Translations under genes and position numbers: made by a program
Notes under the pieces: generated by a model
What the model was told of the DNA's origin: nothing
What the model saw: only the letters and a program-made list of their open reading frames with translations
The model's database searches: none
IMG/VR virus record: IMGVR_UViG_3300046557_000824
Location: 1 to 36,017 of that record
Direction: 5' to 3' (one strand)
Origin: a virus
Length of the DNA: 36,017 nucleotides
Shown here: piece after piece, positions 7,589 through 33,212 of the stretch
Position numbering within the stretch: position 1 is the stretch's first letter
Layout of the letters: every line of letters begins with the position of its first letter

Positions 7589-7631
7589 GACGGCATACAG
7601 CAGGGGCGCGCAGCCCCTGCTGGGTTATGCC
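7589..7631 (-). terminator. Hairpin plus TATGCCGTC element after the 157-aa gene
   Basis: A 10-bp stem (7598-7607 with 7613-7622) is flanked by GGCATA (7592-7597) and TATGCC (7626-7631), which can extend it. On the minus strand the hairpin is followed by TATGCCGTC (complement of 7589-7597). The next bases on that strand are A-rich rather than T-rich, so it is not a canonical intrinsic terminator. The stop codon of the 157-aa gene lies inside the element. Confidence 0.6.
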
Positions 7632-8194: not shown

Positions 8195-8234
8195 GACGGC
8201 ATAAAGCAGCCTCCCCCTACCCGAAGGTAGAGGG
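8195..8234 (-). terminator. Hairpin plus TATGCCGTC element downstream of the capsid gene
   Basis: The stem is CTACC/GGTAG with a CGAA loop (8217-8221 and 8226-8230), extended by CCC/GGG after one mismatch. On the minus strand it is followed by TATGCCGTC (complement of 8195-8203). It lies ~115 nt beyond the capsid stop. Confidence 0.6.
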
Positions 8235-8346: not shown

Positions 8347-10542
8347 TTAGACGTTCTTCAGAACGACCGGGACTTTGGCGTTGACCACATCTTCGATACC
8401 TTCCACGTCGATCTCGATCAGCAGCGGCAGGTTGACGAAGTGGCGGAATGCCGGCGACACGGTGACTTCTTTCGAGGTCTGGCCATCGCGGCTCACCGGC
8501 AGGATGATGGTCATTTCCGGACGGTACATGGTGGTGCCGAAGTGCAGGACATTCGGGATGCCTTGCGCTGCGGTTTCCATGTTGCCGAACGTGATGTACA
8601 TCTTGCCACGCAGGTTCTTGTTCGTGTCGGACACGACCTTGACCGGGAACTTGTCACCCAGCAGGCGCAGATCGCCCTGGATGTTCAGGTACTGTTCGAT
8701 GCGCGGATCGCAAGCGATGATGACGGTCGGGATCTGACCGACGCCACCGTTCTGCGAAGCCGATGCCGGGCCGTAGCTCGACAGTTGCCACATCTTGAAC
8801 ACGTGGTCCTGGACCATGTTGGTCAGCGAAGCGCGGATGTCCGCGTTGCGCTCGGACGACTTCAGGCTGTCCACCACGTCCGGCGCGGTGTACTTGTCGT
8901 ACGCGTAGTACGGGTCCAGCAGCCAGCGAGCCAGGCCGAAGGTCTCGACCGTCTCGCCAGGCATGTGGAACTGGCCTTGCATCGCCTTCATGGTTGCAGC
9001 GTGGTTCTGCAGCACTTCGACGGCGTCGATCGACGAACGGGTCTTGGTGGTGAAGATCAGGAACGACAGGTCACGTGCGTCGTTGACATCGCCGGCGCTG
9101 TGCGGACGAACGATGGTGACCGGAGCCAGCAGGTTCAGCGGGTAGAACTGGCGCTTGGTGTTGGTGTCCATGGTCTGGCCACGCAGACGACGGTTCAGGT
9201 TCGAACGCTTCGCTGCCAGGGTGTAACCGATGACTTCGGCGCCCTTGAAGATGTCAGCGATGGTTTTGCCACCACCGGAGTCGGTAGCGACTTGCACGCC
9301 GTTCTTGGCGACAGTTGCGACTTCCGGTGCCGGGCCGTAGACCGAGCCGTTACCGAATTGCAGGTTCAGGCGGCCGGACAGAGCCACCGACAGGCGCACT
9401 TCGTAGCTGCCGGTCTTGATCGGGTCCAGCAGGGTTGCGACGGTGCCGTCTTCCTTGGTGGTGCTGCCCGAAACCAGCAGGCCACTGTTTTCGAACGACA
9501 GTTGCTGGTCGCGGTAGTCGCCCTGGGTCGCCGGGTAGTAACCAGCGTACGGCAGTTCCTTGACGTTGAAGCGGATGACTTCGGTCTTGGAGCCATCGGC
9601 CGATTTCAGCGCGATGTAGATGTTTTCCAGGAACACGCCGGTGTCGATCGAGTCGGTCTGGTTCGGCAGGCCCTTGGCGACCATGGCGTCGGTGTGCGAC
9701 AGCGACAGCAGGTCGAACTTGGCGCCGACTTTCAGCGCGGTGGTGGTGATCACTTCACCGTTGTTCATCTTGCGGTCGATCGGCTGCACCAGGGTGGTGT
9801 CGACGAAGTTCTGCTTCGATTCGTCACGCAGCACTGGCACCAGGTCGGATGCATCGTTGTGCAGCAGTTCCGGGTAGGTCTGTGCGCGGATGACGTTGTA
9901 ACGGTGGAAGTTCGTGACGGCGCCGCTGATCTGGCGGTTCGCGTCGTCTTGCAGCAGGGCCAGGTCGATCGACATGAACAGGCCGGCTTCGTTCGGCGGG
10001 ATCACGACGGTCGGGAACAGGGTTTCGGCCAGTTCCGATTGACGTGCGCATTCCAGGTTGTAGGCCACCGAGAAGGCGATCGAGGTCGAGGTCGATTGAT
10101 CGTCGTAGGCTTCGTTTGCAGCACGACGCTCGTACGGGGTACGGTCGCCGGATTCGCAGACGGTGATGCCTTCGGTCGAGAAGGCCGGCTTGGTCGGAGC
10201 CTTGACGGCGGCGCCCAGGTCGTGGCCCAGCATCGCGGCGATGGTGGCGGCTTGCAGTTGCTGTTGGTTGTAGCTGTGGGTCGGACGGCCGGTCTTGCTG
10301 TCTTCGACGCCCCAGGCTTCGGTAGCGATGGTTTCGATCTTGTTCAGCAGGCTGGAAGCCGTGTGCTGCAGGTTTTCGATGGCGAGCGTGTTGCCCGAGA
10401 TCGATTCCAGCGAGATCATGTTCTTGGCGACGTCAGCGCCTTGAGCCGAGTGAGCGAAGGTTTCGACTTCCGCGAGGGTGCGATCCAGGAAGCCCGGCAG
10501 GCCACGCGAGTTCGCGCTGTTGTTGAAGATGATGCTTTTCAT
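8347..10542 (-). CDS. Major capsid protein precursor, phiKZ type
   Basis: A 731-aa protein. The start was chosen at ATG 10542 (MKSIIFNNSANSRG) with AGGA 12 nt upstream; a TTG four codons earlier lies too close to that site. The length matches phiKZ-like capsid proteins (~745 aa). Residues 122-124 are S-T-E followed by G, fitting the (S/A/G)-x-E site of the phiKZ-group prohead protease. Cleavage there would give a 124-residue propeptide and a mature shell protein of ~607 residues. Codon choice is strongly biased (C/G in third position), as expected for the most abundant virion protein, and a hairpin-rich trailer follows. The assignment rests on size, cleavage site, codon bias and the neighbouring RNAP-like gene, not on an alignment. 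Confidence 0.8.
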   Translation of the reverse strand: MKSIIFNNSANSRGLPGFLDRTLAEVETFAHSAQGADVAKNMISLESISGNTLAIENLQHTASSLLNKIETIATEAWGVEDSKTGRPTHSYNQQQLQAATIAAMLGHDLGAAVKAPTKPAFSTEGITVCESGDRTPYERRAANEAYDDQSTSTSIAFSVAYNLECARQSELAETLFPTVVIPPNEAGLFMSIDLALLQDDANRQISGAVTNFHRYNVIRAQTYPELLHNDASDLVPVLRDESKQNFVDTTLVQPIDRKMNNGEVITTTALKVGAKFDLLSLSHTDAMVAKGLPNQTDSIDTGVFLENIYIALKSADGSKTEVIRFNVKELPYAGYYPATQGDYRDQQLSFENSGLLVSGSTTKEDGTVATLLDPIKTGSYEVRLSVALSGRLNLQFGNGSVYGPAPEVATVAKNGVQVATDSGGGKTIADIFKGAEVIGYTLAAKRSNLNRRLRGQTMDTNTKRQFYPLNLLAPVTIVRPHSAGDVNDARDLSFLIFTTKTRSSIDAVEVLQNHAATMKAMQGQFHMPGETVETFGLARWLLDPYYAYDKYTAPDVVDSLKSSERNADIRASLTNMVQDHVFKMWQLSSYGPASASQNGGVGQIPTVIIACDPRIEQYLNIQGDLRLLGDKFPVKVVSDTNKNLRGKMYITFGNMETAAQGIPNVLHFGTTMYRPEMTIILPVSRDGQTSKEVTVSPAFRHFVNLPLLIEIDVEGIEDVVNAKVPVVLKNV

Positions 10543-10604
10543 GGTTGTAACCAATCCTTTATCAGGAGTAAGGGAAAGAATTTGCTTTGGGGCTTATTCA
10601 GCTC

Positions 10605-15114: not shown

Positions 15115-15591
15115 ATGGACCAGATCAAGACCCGGGAGTTAAGTAAACTCACCAGTCACCAAACCCGTCTCTTTCAGGACGTCCTCAGCCAAGCGTCGCA
15201 AGACCGCTACTTGAGTCCAAATGAACATGAGACGGTACCGCAAAAGCCCACGGTGGTGGTGATTCTGTTGGGTGAAGAGCCTGTCGGCTTCTATTGTCCG
15301 AAGTCGCAAATGTGGGGTAACCAACGGTACTGGCGATGCGGCGCCTGTTTCGTCGTACCGAAACACCAAGGCAAGGGGATCATGGGAAAAGTGTTGAAGG
15401 AATACTTCGATCGCTATTCGCATGCCTTGTCTTGGATTGAAGACGGCAATACCAAGTCCATCGCACTCTTTACCAGTTTGGGGTTTGTCAAATCCAAACG
15501 GAAAGATTACGAAGGGTATCCAGGCCATTGGTATGTAAAGGAGAAAGCGACCGTCAGTCAGGAAAGTCTGCCGGTCTATCTGCGCTGGTGA
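15115..15591 (+). CDS. GNAT-family N-acetyltransferase, 158 aa
   Basis: The length is typical of a single-domain GNAT enzyme. The acetyl-CoA motif A is seen at 81-94 (VPKHQGKGIMGKVL, the Q-x-x-G-x-G/A pattern), followed by motif B with N112 and the usual S-L-G-F-V end (121-125). The start ATG is 4 bases past the SNF2 stop, so translation is coupled. GNAT enzymes move an acetyl group from acetyl-CoA to an amine of a protein or small molecule; the substrate here is unknown. Small phage GNATs have been linked to modifying host proteins, but this one could equally act on a metabolite. Confidence 0.85.
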   Translation: MDQIKTRELSKLTSHQTRLFQDVLSQASQDRYLSPNEHETVPQKPTVVVILLGEEPVGFYCPKSQMWGNQRYWRCGACFVVPKHQGKGIMGKVLKEYFDRYSHALSWIEDGNTKSIALFTSLGFVKSKRKDYEGYPGHWYVKEKATVSQESLPVYLRW

Positions 15592-16014: not shown

Positions 16015-17490
16015 TTACTCCGAAGCCGGGCGGAGCGAACGTTCAGCGTACATGCACGCGGTATCAGCCACCTTGGTCAGCACCAGCGTGGCCTTGGCCA
16101 TGGCTTGACCGATCTTGGCCATGTTGAACACCGAGAAACCCATCTGTTGCACAGCGCCCGTGAGCACGCTCATGCTGAGACCTTTCAGTGCATCAGGTTC
16201 GTTCTTGATGTCTTGGGCGGTGGGCTTGGATTCACTCAGGCGATTCATCGCATCTTCAACAGCCTTCCGGTGACTATTCATCGACATGTCGGAGCCCATG
16301 TCCTTCTCCAGCTTCCGAATGACGTCGAAAGCAGCATCGACTGCAGCGAACACTTCCGGCAGATTGTCGAGCGGGATTTCGCGAATGCCATCAGCGCGGA
16401 CATTGTTGTAGCCGTTGCCGGCCATATCCACCCACAGATCGAAATCGTTCCAGTTACTGCTATGCGAATCTTTCGATGTGTAGAGCAACGCGAAGTCAGC
16501 CAACATGTGTTTTTCCGAACCTTCTCGCTGGAAGCCGCCGTATTGGACGATCTTGTCGTAGATCTGACTCTGTTTGGCGCCGCCTTCTTTGTAGGTTTTC
16601 ATGAAACTGTCGTAGGTTTCTTGCGATTGCTGGCCATTCAGCGAGCGGTGCATGGATTCAGCACTGTGCTTGACATTGTCGTACAGTTGTGGCCACCCGG
16701 CGTGCATCTTCGAGACACCTTTCTCTACAGCGTCGGTCAGACGACGGATTTCGCCCGCCAGCTTTTCCGGCTCGACGAGTTTGCCGTCAATCGAGAGATT
16801 GCCGGCCGTGCCCCAGAAATCGATACGACGGGGTGGACGCGGCTGTTTGGGTTTCTTGGCTTCGGGCGGCTGTTGGGGCTCTTGACGTGCTTTAGCCTCC
16901 TCAACTTGCTGTTTCGTGATGACGTGGTCACCTGCTCGCGTGATACCATCGCGTTCCACGTAAGCTTGGATGACCGGGTCTTCTTCGAGCGCTTTTTGGA
17001 CTTCAGCGTACTGCTCTTTTGCCTTCTCCAGCTTCTTCTCAGCTTCCTGGAGTTTGGTTTTGTTAAAGCCGAAGAACTGTTTGATGTTCTCCCACGCCTT
17101 GGAAATCAGCTCTTTGATCTTCTTCCAGATCTCTTTGAGTTTGGCGGAAACCGTATCGATGAAACCTTCTGCGCTCACGCCATTATTCGGCAGCACATCG
17201 GTTACCAGTTCTTCTGGGTTCGCGTCTGTGCCCGCCACCGCCATATCAGCCACCGCCGACACCAAGGCTTGGTCGATTGGTTGGATTTCCGGCGTGTTGC
17301 TGACCACGGTTTGGACGTCACCCATGGTCACGATAATGTCGCCGAGTTGATCGATGTCCGCCGATTCCTCTTCGATCTCGTGTTCTGTTTGGTTGCTCTC
17401 ATCGATTGCGATGGCTTCCTCTTCGACGGAGAGCTGTACCGGTACAGAAGCTTGCACTCCCGGCGCTTTATAGGAAAATTTTCTCATCAT
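16015..17490 (-). CDS. Probable packaged head protein with cleaved acidic propeptide, 491 aa
   Basis: It starts at ATG 17490 with AAAGAGA just upstream. Residues 1-105 are strongly acidic (S-V-E-E-E, H-E-I-E-E-E-S-A-D). Residues 106-108 are S-A-E followed by G-F, the same (S/A/G)-x-E site seen in the capsid precursor. Next comes an amphipathic Lys/Trp/Phe helix (~112-140), a Lys/Glu coiled coil (~145-172), a Pro/Lys/Arg-rich linker (~203-222), and a mostly helical C-terminal domain. In phiKZ-group phages the inner-body proteins enter the head with an N-terminal propeptide that the prohead protease removes; this protein fits that plan. The exact homolog is not recognised. Confidence 0.68.
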   Translation of the reverse strand: MMRKFSYKAPGVQASVPVQLSVEEEAIAIDESNQTEHEIEEESADIDQLGDIIVTMGDVQTVVSNTPEIQPIDQALVSAVADMAVAGTDANPEELVTDVLPNNGVSAEGFIDTVSAKLKEIWKKIKELISKAWENIKQFFGFNKTKLQEAEKKLEKAKEQYAEVQKALEEDPVIQAYVERDGITRAGDHVITKQQVEEAKARQEPQQPPEAKKPKQPRPPRRIDFWGTAGNLSIDGKLVEPEKLAGEIRRLTDAVEKGVSKMHAGWPQLYDNVKHSAESMHRSLNGQQSQETYDSFMKTYKEGGAKQSQIYDKIVQYGGFQREGSEKHMLADFALLYTSKDSHSSNWNDFDLWVDMAGNGYNNVRADGIREIPLDNLPEVFAAVDAAFDVIRKLEKDMGSDMSMNSHRKAVEDAMNRLSESKPTAQDIKNEPDALKGLSMSVLTGAVQQMGFSVFNMAKIGQAMAKATLVLTKVADTACMYAERSLRPASE

Positions 17491-17550: not shown

Positions 17551-17591
17551 GACGGCATAAAAAAGGCTCAGATGCCCGAAGGCACCTGAGC
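17551..17591 (-). terminator. Terminator hairpin plus TATGCCGTC
   Basis: An 11-bp stem with one mismatch (17566-17576 with 17581-17591) and a CGAA loop is followed on the minus strand by TTTTTT, then TATGCCGTC (complement of 17551-17559), then a second T run (complement of 17536-17545). It ends the transcript coming from 19.9 kb. Confidence 0.82.
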
Positions 17592-19979: not shown

Positions 19980-20387
19980 TTATGTTTGCGATTCCAAATA
20001 CTTGGTTACGTCTTTCTTCACCTCCACCCACACCGTCACCATGGTGTCGAGGCTGAGATGTAACGAGCCGCGTTCGCGATTACGCTGAAGTTGAAGTGTG
20101 TTGGTGATTTGTTCGAGCAAAGCCGCTTGCTCTGGCGCCAGGCTGGGGTAGGTGGATGGCTGGGACCGCGCAATGAATTCGTCGGTATGCTTTTCCCATG
20201 ACGTCCGCACTTCTGGGGCGGCATCTTCGTATGGTGCCCGCGCGCGTAGTTCCATCAGACCAAAACCGTACTCGATTGCCTCGTGTGCAGTCGAAGCAAT
20301 TCGCGTTCCTTGGAAGGGACTAAGCTTCATACCCTCGACAGTCACTTCGAGCGGCAGCAACAATTTGTTCGGATCAATCGTTTGCAT
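19980..20387 (-). CDS. Hypothetical protein closing the array operon, 135 aa
   Basis: It starts at ATG 20387 (MQTIDPNKLLLPLEVTVEG) with AAGGAGA 5 nt upstream, 9 nt after the previous stop. It is helix-rich and amphipathic; the middle (S-T-A-H-E-A-I-E-Y-G-F-G-L-M-E-L) faintly recalls the helix of the array family, but the D-L-F-G tail is absent. It is best treated as a non-family gene at the end of the same transcript. Confidence 0.75.
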   Translation of the reverse strand: MQTIDPNKLLLPLEVTVEGMKLSPFQGTRIASTAHEAIEYGFGLMELRARAPYEDAAPEVRTSWEKHTDEFIARSQPSTYPSLAPEQAALLEQITNTLQLQRNRERGSLHLSLDTMVTVWVEVKKDVTKYLESQT

Positions 20388-20396
20388 GTTTTCTCC

Positions 20397-21266
20397 TTAT
20401 TTGAATAGATCACGTTTGGCTTGCTTGTCGCGGTTACGAATGGTTTCGTACGTGTCGACCAACGAGTCCGTGGCTCCATACGGCGGTTTACGATTCAGAG
20501 GGATACTGCTATCCCACGTCGGATTGCCGGACAGCTGTTGTGCGCGGTTGAATTCTTCCGTCGGCGCCGCAAACACCATGAATGGTGGTGTGTCAGCGTA
20601 ATCGGGATGCTCACCATCGAGAAGTTGCATGATTTGGTATGCCGTACCTTCACACGCTTCTCTTTTATCAGGGACATGCAAGGCAGTCTTCCACGCGATG
20701 TCATATGCAGCTTGGGTGAACGTTTCCCGCATTTCTTTTGGGTTTAGCTCTGTCCGACCGAGCGGGGGTATTTTTTCCGGATACAACTTTCGAAGCGTCG
20801 GATAAAGAAGCTCATGCAACGATGTTGACACCACCGATTTAGAATCGTAATAGTTTTCACCGTTTTCGATATGATAATCCTTATCGTCTTCATGCACGTC
20901 AGGTACCAGATCGAATGCCGGCAACCGAAGCTTACAACCATCGAGCATCGCCAGTGTCGAATGGATTACACCTTCCACACGATTTTCCATAGACCCGCAA
21001 TTCGGCTGAGTTTGCCAATAGTGAATGTCGTGGCAGATTTGTTCCATCACCTGCTCGGTGACCTCTTCGGACGTATACGCCCGTGGTGCGTTGGGGTCGA
21101 CCGCAGGTTGTTCGTACGGGTTACCCAGCCCGTGCTCTTTGAATACTTGTGCCACGGCTTTCTTAGCCGCCGTTTCTATCAGTTCCTCGATTTGTTCTTT
21201 GTTGAGTTGCTCTTGGATTTGTGGATTGAAGTTCTTCTTTGGGTCATACCCATCATCGCGTGGCAT
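20397..21266 (-). CDS. DLF-tail paralog 8, with duplicated helical domain, 289 aa
   Basis: It starts at ATG 21266 (MPRDDGYDPKKNF) with AGGAGG 6 nt upstream. It seems to hold two copies of the family's helical block. One is near residues 83-130 (E-N-R-V-E-G-V-I-H-S-T-L-A-M-L-D-G, then L-P-A-F-D-L-V-P). A second is near 185-240 (E-A-C-E-G-T-A-Y-Q-I-M-Q-L-L-D-G). A S-I-P-L segment follows, as in the 268-aa paralog, and the chain ends Q-A-K-R-D-L-F-K. The function is not recognised. It is the most degenerate tail of the series and lies at the 3' end of the array. Confidence 0.75.
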   Translation of the reverse strand: MPRDDGYDPKKNFNPQIQEQLNKEQIEELIETAAKKAVAQVFKEHGLGNPYEQPAVDPNAPRAYTSEEVTEQVMEQICHDIHYWQTQPNCGSMENRVEGVIHSTLAMLDGCKLRLPAFDLVPDVHEDDKDYHIENGENYYDSKSVVSTSLHELLYPTLRKLYPEKIPPLGRTELNPKEMRETFTQAAYDIAWKTALHVPDKREACEGTAYQIMQLLDGEHPDYADTPPFMVFAAPTEEFNRAQQLSGNPTWDSSIPLNRKPPYGATDSLVDTYETIRNRDKQAKRDLFK

Positions 21267-21281
21267 AATGCCTCCTGTCGG

Positions 21282-21344
21282 TTACCATACTTCTTTCTCT
21301 TTGCGGTAGTCGCCCGGTTTGTTGTTATCTTCCTGCTTCTTCAC
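21282..21344 (-). CDS. Possible 20-aa microprotein between array genes
   Basis: A GTG at 21344, after a GGGGGG site ~4 nt upstream, opens a 20-codon frame (KKQEDNNKPGDYRKEKEVW after the initiator). It fills the only sizeable gap in the array, and its stop is followed by the AGGAGG of the next gene. It is very charged. It may be a real leader/coupling peptide or the remains of a larger gene. Confidence 0.35.
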   Translation of the reverse strand: MKKQEDNNKPGDYRKEKEVW

Positions 21345-21354
21345 AGCGCCCCCC

Positions 21355-21933
21355 TCAGTCGTATGGTTGGAACAGATCCCGGGCGCTGGCAGCTAGGCGA
21401 TCTTTGTAGCGATCGTAGACGTCCGAGAACACGCTGGTCATGGTGATTACATCGTCTCCCATACCGGACAACGAAATGGGGTCCTCTGTCCAGCGGGCTT
21501 GGATTTCGTTCTCACCCCTTTCAACGTAAACAGAAGGGACAAAATGCGGTAACGCCACAGGTAGCAAATCGAATGCCGGCATCAACCCTTCCACGCCGTT
21601 TTGCAGCATTTCGAACGTGGAGTACACCGCCCCAGCGATACGGTCGTTGATGGTTAAGCGGTGGTGCTGCACACCTTCACCCCACAGCAACAACGCTTGG
21701 TTGTAAGCGCGCTCAGCGACGACCGTCAATGCTTCTTCTTTGGTCAGCGTGGGGATGTCCTCGTACGGGTTGTCACGACCGACATCGTCGATGCTCAGGA
21801 TACCTTTCGCCATCTTGTCCTCCTGTTGTCGTCTGCGTTTCGGGTCCCAAGTTTCTGGCGTACCAAAGAACTCGGGATTGCTGTCTAACACGCGCCGGGC
21901 ATGGTAGTCCAGCTTGCCGTCCTTGCGGGACAT
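21355..21933 (-). CDS. DLF-tail paralog 7, 192 aa
   Basis: The ATG at 21933 overlaps the previous stop (TAATG). The Shine-Dalgarno GGAGG is inside the C-terminal codons of the upstream gene. The N-terminal ~45 residues are basic (D-P-K-R-R-R-Q-Q-E-D-K). Residues ~70-130 hold the family block: A-Y-N-Q-A-L-L-L-W, then N-D-R-I-A-G-A-V-Y-S-T-F-E-M-L-Q-N-G, then M-P-A-F-D-L-L-P. The end is A-A-S-A-R-D-L-F followed by four extra residues QPYD. It is closest to the 275-aa paralog (shared M-L/F-Q-N-G and P-A-F-x-L-x-P). No enzymatic motif is seen. Confidence 0.8.
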   Translation of the reverse strand: MSRKDGKLDYHARRVLDSNPEFFGTPETWDPKRRRQQEDKMAKGILSIDDVGRDNPYEDIPTLTKEEALTVVAERAYNQALLLWGEGVQHHRLTINDRIAGAVYSTFEMLQNGVEGLMPAFDLLPVALPHFVPSVYVERGENEIQARWTEDPISLSGMGDDVITMTSVFSDVYDRYKDRLAASARDLFQPYD

Positions 21934-22760
21934 TAATATCCTCCATGACCAAAGAGGTCTTGAGCCGCAGTACGGAAACGACCACGGGTATTTTCATACT
22001 GTTCTTCGAAGCGGCAGGTTAGTGAACCAGGTGGGCTGCTTGGATCATCAGCATAGGACGTACTCTTGTAAGTCAGTCCCATTGGCTGCCCATAATTCCA
22101 GTCTGCATCGGTCGGCACGCCGTCCCGATAAACCTGGTTGATACATCCTCGATCCGTTTCAGGATCGAGCGGAATGAGCTGGAATGCCGGCACTTGGTCA
22201 TTAAACCCGTTTTGGAACATTCCTAGCACACCGTGTACAGCCCCCATCACCCGTTCCTCAACCCCTAACCCCTCATCCTGCCGGTTAGCCCAGTTATGGG
22301 CGATTAAATGAGCGTTGGTGGCGATCGTTTGGATCTGCTCATACGGCGTCATACGGGGAATGAAATGCCGTTCCTTGAGTGGGTTTTCGATATACGGGAC
22401 TTCTTTTCCTTTGCTTTCAAAGTCAAGCGAGTCGGAGCCAATGACGTAAACATTGTCATAAGCCGAGTTGATGTGCTCAACTTTGAGTTCCACCACGGCG
22501 GCCATGGTGTCGATAAGATTGTGCTTTTCTTCAATCGGCAACGTGTCCAACATCTTATTCAAATCGACATTGCCCACCGTGTAAATACTTTGCACTGCGC
22601 AAAGCGCGGTGTCACGGTATGGATCGTCGATTGGCCATTGATCGTACACGATGTCTTGTCGCGCTAGGTTATTAACATCATCAATAGCAGCAACTGCGTT
22701 GACATAACGCGGTTGATTGAAGTCGGGCTTTGGGCGGGGTGTGCTTTTTGGCAATGGCAT
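21933..22760 (-). CDS. DLF-tail paralog 6, 275 aa
   Basis: The ATG at 22760 follows the previous TAA with no gap; GGAGG is provided by the last Gly-Gly codons of that gene. The N-terminal half (1-135) is specific to this member. Residues ~145-200 carry the family block: H-L-I-A-H-N-W-A, then E-E-R-V-M-G-A-V-H-G-V-L-G-M-F-Q-N-G, then V-P-A-F-Q-L-I-P-L. The tail is F-R-T-A-A-Q-D-L-F-G followed by HGGY. Function unknown. Confidence 0.8.
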   Translation of the reverse strand: MPLPKSTPRPKPDFNQPRYVNAVAAIDDVNNLARQDIVYDQWPIDDPYRDTALCAVQSIYTVGNVDLNKMLDTLPIEEKHNLIDTMAAVVELKVEHINSAYDNVYVIGSDSLDFESKGKEVPYIENPLKERHFIPRMTPYEQIQTIATNAHLIAHNWANRQDEGLGVEERVMGAVHGVLGMFQNGFNDQVPAFQLIPLDPETDRGCINQVYRDGVPTDADWNYGQPMGLTYKSTSYADDPSSPPGSLTCRFEEQYENTRGRFRTAAQDLFGHGGY

Positions 22761-23567
22761 TTATCCTCCGAATAACTCTCTGGCGGCGCGCAGCGAGCGC
22801 TCCTTGATGTTGGATTCGAAGCGGTTGTCGAAATGGCGGTCGAACGCTTTGACCATACCAGTCTGGTAATCGCTCGGTGGCAACAACCCTTCATCCAGCG
22901 GTATGCTGTTGTCGTACCGTGGCAGGTTCTTTTCTTCCCGCGATTCGTCGAACGACGGGTGGGGCGAGAGTATGAACTGCATCAGCGGCAACCCTTCACC
23001 GCCCGGCCGGTTTCCTTCACCACCATCGATCACGTCGATCACGCTGCGCACGGTGCGCAGGCAACGTTCAGTGGGGGTGTAGTTCCCCGGTTCTTGGCCG
23101 TGGTGGAGCGCCTTGTCGATGAGTTTATCAAAGAGCTGCTTGCGCACCTGGCCCATGGTGTAAAAGCCACCGTCGGGGTTTTCGGTGAACGGTTGGGATT
23201 CCGGCCACTCCCGTTCCTTGGCGGGTAGTTCGATGGTCGAGATACCTTCGTAGAAGTGGGTACCCATGCCTTGGCGGACGATCTCAGCCATGGTGTCGAT
23301 GATCTCATGGCTGAGCTCAGGATCATCGAAATCCAAATCCACGCCACTACGACCATTCAACTCTGCTTTGACAGCCAGAGCGACGATGTCTGCCCGGTCG
23401 ATAGCAGGATGGTACCACTTCTTTTGATTATCCTCGGGATCAAAATGTTTCGTCGGTTTGGCTGCCTGTTCCTTCTGATGCGAAATTTCGTAGCGTGCAC
23501 AGGTTTCGATATCTCCCCGATACTTGGGATCGGTGAAAAATTGTCGATGTTGTTTTTTGTCTTCCAT
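22761..23567 (-). CDS. DLF-tail paralog 5, 268 aa
   Basis: The start was chosen at ATG 23567 (MEDKKQHRQFFTDP) with AAAGGAAA 6 nt upstream; in-frame codons further up read as a shadow of the previous gene. The family block is at ~150-205: K-A-L-H-H-G-Q-E-P, then T-E-R-C-L-R-T-V-R-S-V-I-D-V-I-D-G-G, then L-P-L-M-Q-F-I-L-S-P. N-S-I-P-L and F-D-R-H-F-D-N-R-F follow. The end, E-R-S-L-R-A-A-R-E-L-F-G-G, is the canonical tail. The GGA GGA codons before the stop form the ribosome binding site of the next gene. Confidence 0.82.
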   Translation of the reverse strand: MEDKKQHRQFFTDPKYRGDIETCARYEISHQKEQAAKPTKHFDPEDNQKKWYHPAIDRADIVALAVKAELNGRSGVDLDFDDPELSHEIIDTMAEIVRQGMGTHFYEGISTIELPAKEREWPESQPFTENPDGGFYTMGQVRKQLFDKLIDKALHHGQEPGNYTPTERCLRTVRSVIDVIDGGEGNRPGGEGLPLMQFILSPHPSFDESREEKNLPRYDNSIPLDEGLLPPSDYQTGMVKAFDRHFDNRFESNIKERSLRAARELFGG

Positions 23568-23578
23568 GTTGTTTCCTT

Positions 23579-24697
23579 TTACGTCCCGAACATTTTCTTG
23601 GCGGCTTCTGCGCGACGCGTACCCAGCGTTTCCACGAGCGTATCGAACGAACGCACGATGCTTGACGCCTGGGTAGCGGACGGCATCGGCGTGTGAAGAA
23701 GCCACTGTTGTTGGGTTTCCGTTTCCATTACAGGTTCGACAAACGGCTGCGGGATTAATCGCATTGGCGGTACGTTATGGTCGTCACCGAACTCGAACAA
23801 CTGCGCCGCATCCCGCACCGCGTTGAAGACCCGTGTGACCGGATCGTAGTTTTCGTTATGCGCCCAGGTGTTGGCGGTATGGTACAACGCATCCGCCATG
23901 AGCTTGCGCTGCTCACCCGCAGTTAACACGCGGGTATTGTCATACGCGTTGGCTGGAGCGGAGTCGTTGGTGGCAGGTTCTCCTTGCGGGATTGGTTTAT
24001 AAACGTTACTGAGGTTGTGGACCACCGCCTGAGTGACTTGCTGGCGTGCATACGGGTCGGTGATGCCGTGGATGACATTGGCGAACTGTGCACCCATGTA
24101 ACTGCCGATGCCGGTGTAGTCTTTTTCCACCAACATTCTCTCAACCTCCGCTGAACGAACCCGCGCCATGTGCGAAGAGATATGTGCGGAGTACGTGTTG
24201 CTATGGTATTCGCCCCAGCCGCCGAATTCCCCCAAACGCGGTTTGTCGCAATAGTAAGCTGCGTCGACTTGGTAAGCCGATAAACCGTGACCGTCATCCA
24301 TCAGCTTAGCGATTTCATACAACCACAACAGCTCAGGCGTCTCGTAGGGATCAACATCCGTAAGAAAATTGACGTACTCCGCAGCTTTGTCAGTACCCAT
24401 GGTACCAAAATGGGTGAAGAGATTTGTCAGCAGGTTCGACAAGTCTTGCGCGATCCAAGGTTCTTGCATCATACTCGACTCAAATGGAACTTTGAGGAAC
24501 GTGCAGAGATCTTCCAACGGCTTGACCATATTTTCCCACGAAGCGTATTGTTCCAAGAACTCGCCGCGTGCAATATAGGCTTCACCATTACCGGGGTATT
24601 TCTCATTCAGATTGTAACATCCAAACAGTGCTCGGATGACCGGGGTCACCAGTTTGACCTTGATGACCCCGACGACTTCTTCGTAATTATTCGCCAT
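23579..24697 (-). CDS. DLF-tail paralog 4, 372 aa (longest member)
   Basis: The start was chosen at ATG 24697 (MANNYEEVVGVIKVKLV) after AAGGGGAAGG, 11 nt past the previous stop. The first ~250 residues are unique to this member and predicted helical. The family block is at ~285-335: A-L-Y-H-T-A-N-T-W-A, then V-T-R-V-F-N-A-V-R-D-A-A-Q-L-F, then V-P-P-M-R-L-I-P-Q-P. The end R-R-A-E-A-A-K-K-M-F-G-T has Met in place of Leu in the D-L-F-G tail. Confidence 0.8.
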   Translation of the reverse strand: MANNYEEVVGVIKVKLVTPVIRALFGCYNLNEKYPGNGEAYIARGEFLEQYASWENMVKPLEDLCTFLKVPFESSMMQEPWIAQDLSNLLTNLFTHFGTMGTDKAAEYVNFLTDVDPYETPELLWLYEIAKLMDDGHGLSAYQVDAAYYCDKPRLGEFGGWGEYHSNTYSAHISSHMARVRSAEVERMLVEKDYTGIGSYMGAQFANVIHGITDPYARQQVTQAVVHNLSNVYKPIPQGEPATNDSAPANAYDNTRVLTAGEQRKLMADALYHTANTWAHNENYDPVTRVFNAVRDAAQLFEFGDDHNVPPMRLIPQPFVEPVMETETQQQWLLHTPMPSATQASSIVRSFDTLVETLGTRRAEAAKKMFGT

Positions 24698-24707
24698 CGC
24701 CTTCCCC

Positions 24708-25370
24708 TTACGTACCGAACAAATCTTTTGCTGCACGAACCGTTCTGGCTTTGATAGCTTTACCGTATTCGTTATCATAGCGCAGCCCGTAGCTTTGCTG
24801 CGCCATGACTTCTGGTTCTTCGGGATGCGCGATGCGGTAAGCATCGTACGCGACACCATGAGCCACCTCCACCACGCTCAGGTTCGGTTTCTCAGCCCAC
24901 TTCTTGGCGGTATCGAAGAAACGCTGCTGCTGCGTTTGATGCTGTTCTTGCCGCGCAAGCGCGATGAGGTCGTTCATCTGCCGCGCGCCTTCTTCAGGCG
25001 ACAGTTCTTTCTCCCGGATCTTGGTGTAAATTTGACCAAAATCTTTGGTGAGCGTGGCGGCGTTTGACAAACCAGAGAGTGAGTCCAAATCACCCATGAA
25101 ACTGGTCAACAAGTTCGCGGCCACGTAATTGTCCATATCTTCTTCAGTCGTTACTTCACGGTAATCGAACTTCTGACCTAAGCGGTTAAAAGACACGCCG
25201 TTGACATGACCCATGTTCATCTGGTCACCCATCTTGATCGCTTCTTCGAGTGCTTGGGTAAATTCAGCGGAACTGATAAATCCGCCATGTTCATTGAAAT
25301 AGTCGACGATGAAAGTACGTCCTCGAACATGGATCTCTTGTTGCTCTTTCTTACCTTTACCAGTTTTCAT
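24708..25370 (-). CDS. DLF-tail paralog 3, 220 aa
   Basis: The ATG at 25370 follows the previous stop by 2 nt; GGGGGT from the last Gly codons of that gene is the likely ribosome binding site. Residues ~150-182 hold F-F-D-T-A-K-K-W-A-E-K-P-N-L-S and V-A-H-G-V-A-Y-D-A-Y-R-I. The tail is Y-D-N-E-Y-G-K-A-I-K-A-R-T-V-R-A-A-K-D-L-F-G-T in sense order. It groups with paralogs 1 and 2 by the H-G-V/A motif and by the Y-D-x3-Y/F-x4-I-K-A-R lead-in. Confidence 0.82.
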   Translation of the reverse strand: MKTGKGKKEQQEIHVRGRTFIVDYFNEHGGFISSAEFTQALEEAIKMGDQMNMGHVNGVSFNRLGQKFDYREVTTEEDMDNYVAANLLTSFMGDLDSLSGLSNAATLTKDFGQIYTKIREKELSPEEGARQMNDLIALARQEQHQTQQQRFFDTAKKWAEKPNLSVVEVAHGVAYDAYRIAHPEEPEVMAQQSYGLRYDNEYGKAIKARTVRAAKDLFGT

Positions 25371-25372
25371 AC

Positions 25373-26095
25373 TTAACCCCCGAATAAGTCTTTGGCGGCG
25401 CGCAGCTTGCGTTCCTTGATCTGTTCGCTCAGATGGGTATCGTAGTGCCGGGCGTAAGCTTGACCTGCACTGATGTCGTAAGCTTTGCGCATGCTGTCCG
25501 GAATGAATTTCGTGCCACCAAAATCGAACTCTTTGGCATCCACTCCGTAGATCTTGTACAGATCGTGCGCCACACCGTGACAGCGTTCCATTGGCGTGAG
25601 GTCCGGTTCGGCAGCCCAGTGGTTGGCGATATCAAACGCTTGGCGCAGTTCTGCGGTGCGCTTGTCTTGCATTTCCCGGACAGCTGCTCGCTCGTAGTGT
25701 TCCGAACGCTGGCGATTGTGTTCATGGATCGCCTCCTTCTCTTCCTCCGACTTGCTTTCCCATGCCAATCCAGCAGCTTCGTCGCCAGCCATCATGGTGG
25801 CAGCGAAAATCAAGCCCGACGCCACCTGCGCTTTCAGGTGCAGTTGCAAACGGCCGGGACCAAAGCCCGGCAGTTCCTTCAGCGCCTCAGCGTCTTCCGG
25901 GCTCATCAAGCCTGTCGGCAAAATTTCGTCCGGCACATTGGTAACCATGCCGATCTCGACGCTTTCGAGTTTTTCGTAGACGCTCTCGGAAATATCGTCG
26001 AGAACCCGCATCAACCGTACCGGGTCGGAATCCTTCGGAATTCCCGAGACCGTAATGACCGCACGTGGCCCGCGTTCGTTATTTTCAAATTCCAT
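25373..26095 (-). CDS. DLF-tail paralog 2, 240 aa
   Basis: The ATG at 26095 follows GAGGAG, 9 nt after the previous stop. The N-terminal part has a strand plus G-I-P-K motif (A-V-I-T-V-S-G-I-P-K, ~12-21) shared with paralog 1 (V-V-I-M-G-V-P-K-K). A Glu/Arg/His-rich helix lies at ~110-155. The family block at ~152-185 reads A-F-D-I-A-N-H-W-A-A-E-P-D-L-T, then M-E-R-C-H-G-V-A-H-D-L-Y-K-I-Y-G. The tail is E-R-K-L-R-A-A-K-D-L-F-G-G. Confidence 0.82.
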   Translation of the reverse strand: MEFENNERGPRAVITVSGIPKDSDPVRLMRVLDDISESVYEKLESVEIGMVTNVPDEILPTGLMSPEDAEALKELPGFGPGRLQLHLKAQVASGLIFAATMMAGDEAAGLAWESKSEEEKEAIHEHNRQRSEHYERAAVREMQDKRTAELRQAFDIANHWAAEPDLTPMERCHGVAHDLYKIYGVDAKEFDFGGTKFIPDSMRKAYDISAGQAYARHYDTHLSEQIKERKLRAAKDLFGG

Positions 26096-26104
26096 GGTGA
26101 CTCC

Positions 26105-26854
26105 TCACTTCTGACCAAACAGGTCTTTGGCAGCGCGAATCGAGCGTGCCTTGATGTCCTCGACGAAGTGCGTGTCGAAGTGCTTGTCATAATCCCGACC
26201 GGGATCGACTTCCATTGGTCGTCCGGCTGCATCAGCGCCACGGGTTTCGCCATAGCGGCTGTAGAGGTCACGTACAGCACCGTGGACGCGTTCACGCGGC
26301 GTCAGGTCGGTACCGGTCGACCATTTCTGGGCGGTTTCGAAAGCGTGCTCAACGGCTTCCAAACGGCGCTTCTCGGCCGCTTCGTTGGATTCTTTGCGCA
26401 AATGGCGTACGCGTTCGATCATGCGCTGTTGTTCTTCAGGCGACATCTCGTCGAAATTTTTGTCTTCTTCGTCTATAGCGCGCAGACGCTGCTGGCGATC
26501 TTGGTGGATAAACAACGCCATCAACGCCTTACCTTCGCCGCTGTTGATATAATCCAGCATCTCTTCATCCCCTTCGCTCTTCGCAAACATCAGCGGGGCA
26601 TGCAGATTCACGTCCTTGATCTTGACCACATCGATGAAGTCGTATGCGTTGCGAACGGCTTCGCCGATGGCTGGGATAATAGTGCGCGCGTTGTAGTTGT
26701 CCTTTTTCGGGACACCCATGATCACCACCATCTCGCCGACCAACGGTTTTGTTTCATCCGGCATCTTACCGTCGAAAATTTGGTTACGTGTTTCTTCAGC
26801 CACTTCCATTTTGCCGGTGTTTTTCTTAGCCGCTTTTGCTTTCTTCGTAGCCAT
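26105..26854 (-). CDS. DLF-tail paralog 1 (first of the array), 249 aa
   Basis: It starts at ATG 26854 with CAGGAGG 6 nt upstream. The N-terminus is Lys/Ala-rich (MATKKAKAAKKNTGK). V-V-I-M-G-V-P-K-K (43-51) is shared with paralog 2. A long charged helix follows at ~118-170. The family block is at 171-202: A-F-E-T-A-Q-K-W, then P-R-E-R-V-H-G-A-V-R-D-L-Y-S-R-Y-G. The tail at 234-249 is I-K-A-R-S-I-R-A-A-K-D-L-F-G-Q-K in sense order. It follows a terminator and a ~110-nt gap, so the array promoter is probably just upstream. Function unknown. Confidence 0.83.
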   Translation of the reverse strand: MATKKAKAAKKNTGKMEVAEETRNQIFDGKMPDETKPLVGEMVVIMGVPKKDNYNARTIIPAIGEAVRNAYDFIDVVKIKDVNLHAPLMFAKSEGDEEMLDYINSGEGKALMALFIHQDRQQRLRAIDEEDKNFDEMSPEEQQRMIERVRHLRKESNEAAEKRRLEAVEHAFETAQKWSTGTDLTPRERVHGAVRDLYSRYGETRGADAAGRPMEVDPGRDYDKHFDTHFVEDIKARSIRAAKDLFGQK

Positions 26855-26969: not shown

Positions 26970-27248
26970 TTACACCAACATCGTGATCTCGTCGATGCCG
27001 ATCAGGGTCAAGCCCTTGACGTAGGCGTTCCACGACATGTGGTCGCTGGCCAGCTCTTTGGCGACATTGGCAGCGGCGCCAGCGGCGTCATGGGAATCTT
27101 GCCCCGGCCTGATGACGAACGCCTGGATGCGCTTTTTCAGTTCTTCTTCGTTGATGTTTTTGTCCTTGAGGATCTTGCGCCACGCTTGGCTCAGCGTGTT
27201 GATCTCGGTGGGACGGTTGATGCCGATATGGACGACGGTAACGGACAT
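26970..27248 (-). CDS. Hypothetical protein, 92 aa
   Basis: It starts at ATG 27248 with AAAGGAAG 6 nt upstream. The small protein begins with a strand (MSVTVVHIGINRP), followed by Lys/Glu helices (I-N-E-E-E-L-K-K-R-I) and a C-terminal strand (L-T-L-I-G-I-D-E-I-T-M-L-V). It lies between two hairpins, so it is probably a single-gene transcript. No family is recognised. Confidence 0.78.
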   Translation of the reverse strand: MSVTVVHIGINRPTEINTLSQAWRKILKDKNINEEELKKRIQAFVIRPGQDSHDAAGAAANVAKELASDHMSWNAYVKGLTLIGIDEITMLV

Positions 27249-27281: not shown

Positions 27282-27324
27282 GACGGCATACCTAGCCCCC
27301 GTGATGGGAGGCTAGGCGTTATGC
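27282..27324 (-). terminator. Hairpin plus TATGCCGTC element
   Basis: The stem CCTAGCC/GGCTAGG (27291-27297 with 27310-27316) is extended by CCC/GGG. Outer GCATA/TATGC pairs flank it. On the minus strand it is followed by TATGCCGTC (complement of 27282-27290) and TCTTTTT, so it fits an intrinsic terminator for the 149-aa gene. Confidence 0.8.
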
Positions 27325-33177: not shown

Positions 33178-33212
33178 GACGGCATAAAGAAGAGGAGCCG
33201 GAGCTCCCCTTC
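33178..33212 (-). terminator. Hairpin plus TATGCCGTC element
   Basis: The stem GGAGC/GCTCC with a CGGA loop (33194-33198 and 33203-33207) is extended by four pairs after a mismatch. On the minus strand it is followed by TATGCCGTC (complement of 33178-33186) and ATATTTT. It lies in the gap between the 561-aa gene and the deoxyribosyltransferase-like gene. Confidence 0.65.

Follow-up and report, generated by a model that had tools for sequence, protein, structure and literature searches.

A lineage-specific tandem array of paralogs with a conserved C-terminal tail expands an uncharacterised phage domain

Giant phages related to phiKZ contain large tandem families of paralogs with variable copy number, such as family B of phage SPN3US and family A, phiKZ_IP (PF12699) (PMC5694885). 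A domain of about 100 amino acids (aa), catalogued in PHROG 27353, 29367 and 11061 (unknown function), is present in other phage proteins, including members in Escherichia phage U1G and Acinetobacter phage AB1, and two such proteins are encoded side by side in phiKZ. Here, we analyzed an array of eight adjacent, tightly packed minus-strand open reading frames (ORFs) located at positions 20397-26854 of the IMG/VR record IMGVR_UViG_3300046557_000824. This record is a phage fragment of 36,017 bases, and the whole of it is called the window below. The array proteins, 192-372 aa long, contain a domain homologous to that of the PHROG proteins and end in a common short tail, while they are unrelated in sequence to SPN3US family B and phiKZ_IP.

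The window comes from a phiKZ-related jumbo phage. It codes for a phiKZ-type major head protein at 8347-10554 (phrog_3231, E 9e-164) and for two DNA helicases, the first of which is DnaB-like, and the nearest cultured phage in the head protein comparison was Burkholderia phage FLC9 (39% identity). Three close IMG/VR contigs, G001 (271 kb), G002 (272 kb) and G003 (70 kb), showed 73-79% identity over the second helicase. The same array was found at the same position in G001, G002 and G003, with 9, 10 and 9 tailed genes, respectively, and with one additional tail-less gene in each. The tail-less gene of G001 is a truncated relative, similar over its first ~100 residues to the N-terminal part of protein 5. 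After refinement of the start sites the array of the window consists of the following elements:

26105..26854, minus strand: array gene 1, 249 aa; tail RSIRAAKDLF at 26117-26146; degenerate domain copy at about 26270-26374.
25373..26095, minus strand: array gene 2, 240 aa; tail RKLRAAKDLF at 25382-25411; domain at about 25445-25660; AlphaFold2 model with confident C-terminal half.
24708..25370, minus strand: array gene 3, 220 aa; tail RTVRAAKDLF at 24717-24746; weak domain copy at about 24843-24935.
23579..24697, minus strand: array gene 4, 372 aa; divergent tail RRAEAAKKMF at 23588-23617; domain at about 23741-23935; orthologs in 3/3 relatives.
22761..23567, minus strand: array gene 5, 268 aa with the ATG of position 23567 as start codon; tail RSLRAARELF at 22770-22799; domain at about 22953-23162.
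21933..22760, minus strand: array gene 6, 275 aa; tail RFRTAAQDLF at 21951-21980; domain at about 22167-22349.
21355..21933, minus strand: array gene 7, 192 aa; tail RLAASARDLF at 21370-21399; domain at about 21544-21687.
20397..21266, minus strand: array gene 8, 289 aa, the last member; tail RDKQAKRDLF at 20403-20432.
20802..21086, minus strand: full domain copy 1 of protein 8 (~100-aa phage domain; aa 61-155), with 47% identity to stand-alone proteins from phages of Salmonella and Citrobacter.
20553..20741, minus strand: degenerate domain copy 2 of protein 8 (aa 176-238).

The data confirmed the claim of an earlier note on this DNA that eight consecutive minus-strand genes of this size share a tail; its ORF for gene 5 ran further upstream than the ATG. 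The tail, an amphipathic helix with the consensus R-x3-A-A-[KR]-[DE]-[LM]-F, was present in 36/36 tailed proteins of the four genomes. With the phenylalanine taken as position 0, the conserved residues were R at -9 (33/36), A at -4 (35/36), K or R at -3 (33/36), D or E at -2 (31/36), L or M at -1 (36/36) and F itself (36/36), and the consensus residue at -5 was also A. The last 16 residues of the eight proteins had a mean pairwise BLOSUM62 score of 33.8. Shuffled sequences scored 12.4, the highest of 1000 shuffles reaching 14.8, and internal 16-mers scored 10.8, with 13.5 as the highest value. Hence, in the shuffling test proposed in the earlier note the similarity of the tails was far beyond that of shuffled sequences. 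None of the other genes of the window scored above 17 against the eight tails. When a hidden Markov model of the tail was run over the C-termini of ORFs of at least 40 aa in the three relatives, the array genes were matched with E<=1.6e-6, while the next match had E=0.06. This best match outside the array was a 168-aa protein adjoining the head maturation protease (G001 46287-46793), which ends in RQKQAA[QY]D[ML]FAPA, and whose ortholog in G002 ends near position 21582. Scans of IMG/VR viral contigs based on the tail or on protein 8 returned the same three contigs only.

The [LM]-F core of the tail was thus invariant, while the glycine of the D-L-F-G ending described earlier was not. The F was followed by G in 20 of 27 members in which the next gene starts within 12 nt, versus 2 of 9 others. 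In line with this dependence on gene spacing, the trailing G is partly an artefact of the Shine-Dalgarno site of the next gene and not a firm part of the motif. Because the codons after F often form this site, the tail as a whole could be considered a by-product of translational coupling, recent duplication or gene conversion. Such an origin has next to no probability for the core, because A-A-[KR]-[DE]-[LM]-F is encoded ahead of the Shine-Dalgarno site, and because the last array member and the members located before gaps of 36-98 nt have retained it. Additionally, the synonymous codon identity of same-residue pairs in the last ten tail positions was 0.359, compared to 0.352 expected from the codon usage of the family (3,711 comparisons), and it was near expectation within each genome as well. 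The random use of synonymous codons between the copies shows that the tail is kept by protein-level selection, and not by recent duplication or gene conversion. Hence, the by-product explanation is refuted for the core motif and stands only for the trailing G. The stronger conservation of the tail than of the body, which had been noticed before, was also observed within ortholog groups, where the tail was 64-86% identical and the body 39-50%. Body windows as conserved as the tail made up 3-16% in the groups tested, except for group 7, where there were none.

The rest of the array proteins had been described as mostly different apart from a helical block. This is only partly correct: the N-termini are divergent, but the block is a conserved domain, present as degenerate copies of the ~100-aa domain of other phages. 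The 47% identity of protein 8 to stand-alone proteins extends over aa 59-154, and the matching ~100-aa proteins are those of Salmonella phage seszw and Citrobacter phage K1M; related stand-alone proteins are present in N4-like, Acinetobacter and phiKZ phages. The profile built from 14 stand-alone proteins gave 28 matches among the 6,140 ORFs of the window and its relatives, and 28/28 were array members. The matches span the pattern YTxEE..W..ER.xG..S.L..DG..P.F.L. The hhalign probability was 98% for the alignment of groups 5-7 and 90% for the type of groups 1-3, and these profile-profile alignments, which confirm the homology of both array types, do not extend beyond the P-x-F region and do not reach the tail. 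The C-terminal half of the domain (PHPxDK...GENYY...LHE) is mostly kept in copy 1 of protein 8 and is degenerate or lost elsewhere. An all-versus-all BLAST also connected the array members to each other, and the data as a whole support the earlier view that they are real paralogs, which arose by tandem amplification with N-terminal divergence.

A scan of IMG/VR for the domain gave 19 loci, and the largest contig carrying it was 543 kb long. Two copies are present in Klebsiella phage Eowyn, and the domain is also carried by the tandem pair gp257-gp258 of phiKZ (PHIKZ257, PHIKZ258; L006 5092-6197), so the seed of the array is present in a genetically tractable phage. The tail was absent from every stand-alone homolog that was read. 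Searches of Pfam, NCBIfam, PADLOC and PDB sequences with the array proteins or the domain gave no credible match; the matches in PADLOC-DB, which covers defence and not counter-defence systems, were weak and unconvincing (best E=0.0022). Also tblastn of phages with main-type array members gave nothing significant, a plasmid search with protein 8 gave no match, and a pattern scan of genome contigs for the domain gave no confirmed relative. The neighbours of the stand-alone genes were not recurrent among distant hosts. No study of phiKZ gp257 or gp258 was found in the literature, where the gp257 that is discussed is a DNA ligase of PhiPA3, and no function of the domain is recorded in the sources searched.

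A maximum-likelihood tree of the C-terminal parts of the array members contained five paralog groups, each represented once in every one of the four phages, which dates those duplications before the split of these phages. In the other clade members were gained and lost, and the first half of the array turns over. Member 8 of G001 and member 7 of G003 have a common N-terminal module (55% over 60 aa, E 3e-23) on different C-terminal types, and a likewise shuffled N-terminal module is found in member 3 of G001 and member 6 of G003 (37% over 101 aa, E 2e-19). These alignments indicate that N-terminal modules are exchanged between array members and between C-terminal types. The identity of array proteins between the phages was 29-59%, as compared to 73-87% for DnaB, the SNF2 helicase and the major capsid protein, and other small genes near the array were also variable. 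Judged from such comparisons, the array is an old, modular set in an accessory region.

We propose that the array codes for a family of modular accessory proteins, each of which consists of a variable N-terminal module, a diverged small domain and the lineage-specific C-terminal amphipathic helix. The common C-terminal half, including the tail, would bring every member to one shared partner, which could be a protein of the phage or of the host, or a complex formed by the family members. The N-terminal modules would then perform different jobs at this partner and would probably be dispensable or host-specific. Variable N-terminal modules on a common C-terminal module docking on one shared partner are the best, although still tentative, reading of the data. 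A bolder version, which we regard as speculative and rather unlikely, is that the C-terminal helix is an address tag, by which one phage or host hub gathers eight to ten N-terminal effector modules via the A-A-[KR]-[DE]-[LM]-F turn, with the effector set remodelled by module swaps onto tagged copies.

The closest competitor of docking on a shared partner is that the tail is a structural helix, which packs on its own domain or on sister proteins in homo- or hetero-oligomers with no separate partner, so that its conservation would reflect the shared fold. The AlphaFold2 model of protein 2, run with 16 family members, had a confident C-terminal half (helices 117-161, 168-183 and 210-238) and an unreliable N-terminal half. 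In helix 210-238 the predicted local distance difference test score (pLDDT) was about 90, which makes the tail the last turns of a helix of ~29 residues. The helical hydrophobic moment of the tail was also high (mean 0.36 versus 0.24 for shuffled sequences, maximum 0.30), with hydrophobic i/i+4 positions at -16, -12, -5 and -1. Moreover, the members are co-encoded with overlapping or adjacent starts, which is typical of subunits. On the other hand, the stand-alone homologs that were read have the domain without the tail, and the stretch linking the domain to the tail varies in length and is poorly predicted. The charged residues R(-9), K/R(-3) and D/E(-2) are also conserved, and those at -3 and -2 should not be needed for the packing of a hydrophobic core alone. 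The fact that in the last two helical turns both faces are conserved, including these two positions, favours a binding surface over pure core packing. We consider the structural helix possible but somewhat doubtful, and docking on a shared partner is held only slightly above it. The search of the PDB for folds similar to the model of protein 2 gave no match. The model of protein 8 had a mean pLDDT of 57 and was not used, and the fold search with it had no meaning.

Several observations weigh against docking on a shared partner. No partner was identified, and the tests of specific partners were negative or empty. In the near-complete G001 and G002 contigs no gene outside the array had a convincing tail (best E=0.06). 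The distance from F to the C-terminus varies among members from 1 to 7 residues, which excludes the free C-terminal carboxylate as the recognized feature, in contrast to many C-terminal docking peptides. A helix of 29 residues that includes the tail, as predicted with confidence, would also result from an internal structural role. The docking or sorting peptide of the earlier note is putative, and in the one confident model the tail is the end of this helix and not evidently a free peptide. Finally, the neighbouring small genes are also fast-evolving, and divergence alone is thus no mark of an arms race.

The D-[LM]-F ending resembles sliding-clamp-binding peptides. The G001 and G002 contigs also contain weak homologs of phiKZ ChmA (gp54) and phiKZ gp69, which suggests that the lineage is probably nucleus-forming. 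The tail could therefore be a clamp-binding peptide or a signal for import into the phage nucleus; a sliding clamp and a nuclear-shell factor were among the candidate partners listed in the earlier note. However, the Q at position 1 of the bacterial QxxLF motif was found in 0/36 tails, and neither large relative had a match to DNA_pol3_beta_3 (PF02768), the domain of the bacterial-type clamp, in a search whose control was positive in 11/14 cases. In these two relatives no other gene, including the replication genes, clearly has the tail. Furthermore, PIC import in phiKZ and PhiPA3 was shown to depend on a folded surface, and not on an N- or C-terminal sequence (PMC11087766). Hence, a role in clamp binding or nuclear import appears very improbable.

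The occurrence of tandem head paralog families in giant phages, such as SPN3US family B (gps 138-154; PMC5694885), could suggest that the array proteins are internal head (ejection) proteins and that the tail is a capsid-targeting signal. This would be consistent with the ending of the 168-aa protein whose gene adjoins that of the head protease in both large relatives, and with the following gene of the window:

16015-17490, minus strand: gene for an internal head protein of phiKZ type (PF12699, E 4.5e-8), located about 3 kb beyond the array on its downstream side.

However, PF12699 matched 0/8 array proteins of the window, and the SPN3US family B profile matched six ORFs outside the array in the relatives (E<=5e-11), but none of the array ORFs. 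The S/A-x-E protease motif was not enriched (113 versus 111 in shuffled sequences), and the tail of the 168-aa protein was not kept in its FLC9 or LucasX orthologs. In the cases inspected, the stand-alone domain genes were located among small hypothetical genes of diverse small phages, and not in a head operon. These data make a head role improbable, and the head packaging factor suggested earlier as a partner fares no better. The homologs of SPN3US family B are located separately from the array, at about 133431-141257 in G001 and about 111062-118732 in G002.

The surroundings of the array contain the following features:

26970..27248, minus strand: 92-aa gene upstream of the array, with a hairpin and TATGCCGTC element before it; possibly in the transcription unit of the array.
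19980..20387, minus strand: 135-aa gene directly downstream of the array, with a hairpin after it; no family match.
15115-15591, plus strand: acetyltransferase-like gene, in the stretch that separates the helicases from the array block.
7589-7597, 8195-8203, 17551-17559, 27282-27290 and 33178-33186, all minus strand: TATGCCGTC 9-mer, intergenic, directly after strong hairpins.

The acetyltransferase-like gene has a 47% identical counterpart in G001, and none was detected in G002 or G003. The hairpins before TATGCCGTC have energies of -12 to -29 kcal/mol in 40 nt, and in G001 there are 15 exact TATGCCGTC sites versus about 2 expected. The 9-mer was considered as a promoter of the array, which was dropped because it follows strong hairpins and because several sites have no co-directional gene downstream. 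One hairpin (58279/58327 in G001) is flanked by TATGCCGTC on both sides, which, together with the sites lacking a co-directional gene, makes a part of a terminator more likely. TATGCCGTC thus looks like a part of a lineage-specific terminator.

The array is a genuine, lineage-specific tailed tandem expansion of an uncharacterised phage domain. The earlier statement that no such system is described holds for the array in the sources searched, but not for its block, which is an already catalogued domain. The domain family ranges from ~40-kb phages to the 543-kb viral contig. The array makes this unannotated family testable, and the tail is a testable handle on its binding partner. Such a partner, once found, would give the family its first function and would reveal how a giant phage operates a set of exchangeable proteins.

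The stand-alone PHROG proteins differ from the array members in that they are without the RxxxAA[KR][DE][LM]F tail and without shuffled N-terminal modules, and occur as one or two per genome searched. The same domain was detected in LLCLJKAH_00246 of Klebsiella phage vB_KvM-Eowyn and its homolog in Serratia phage KpGz_1 (E 6e-28, with one Eowyn sequence in the query profile), and the Eowyn protein was the best viral structure match to the model. These proteins end in DEFQDDAIPF (Eowyn, L098 4201-4572) and DDFQDEEIPF (KpGz_1, 137421-137798), which is an acidic tip like that of single-stranded DNA-binding protein (SSB) and not the array tail. These endings suggest that the domain family carries different C-terminal docking peptides in different phages. 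The capsid-targeting sequences of T4 type are likewise short terminal sequences common to different co-expressed phage proteins (PMC5694885). They are, however, N-terminal and cut off by the head protease, while the array proteins carry a helix at the C-terminus and are not enriched in a cleavage motif. In its tandem organization and variable copy number the array is similar to SPN3US family B and phiKZ_IP, while the related phages carry separate family B members, and it is thus a third tandem paralog family, distinct from the two head families described in giant phages.

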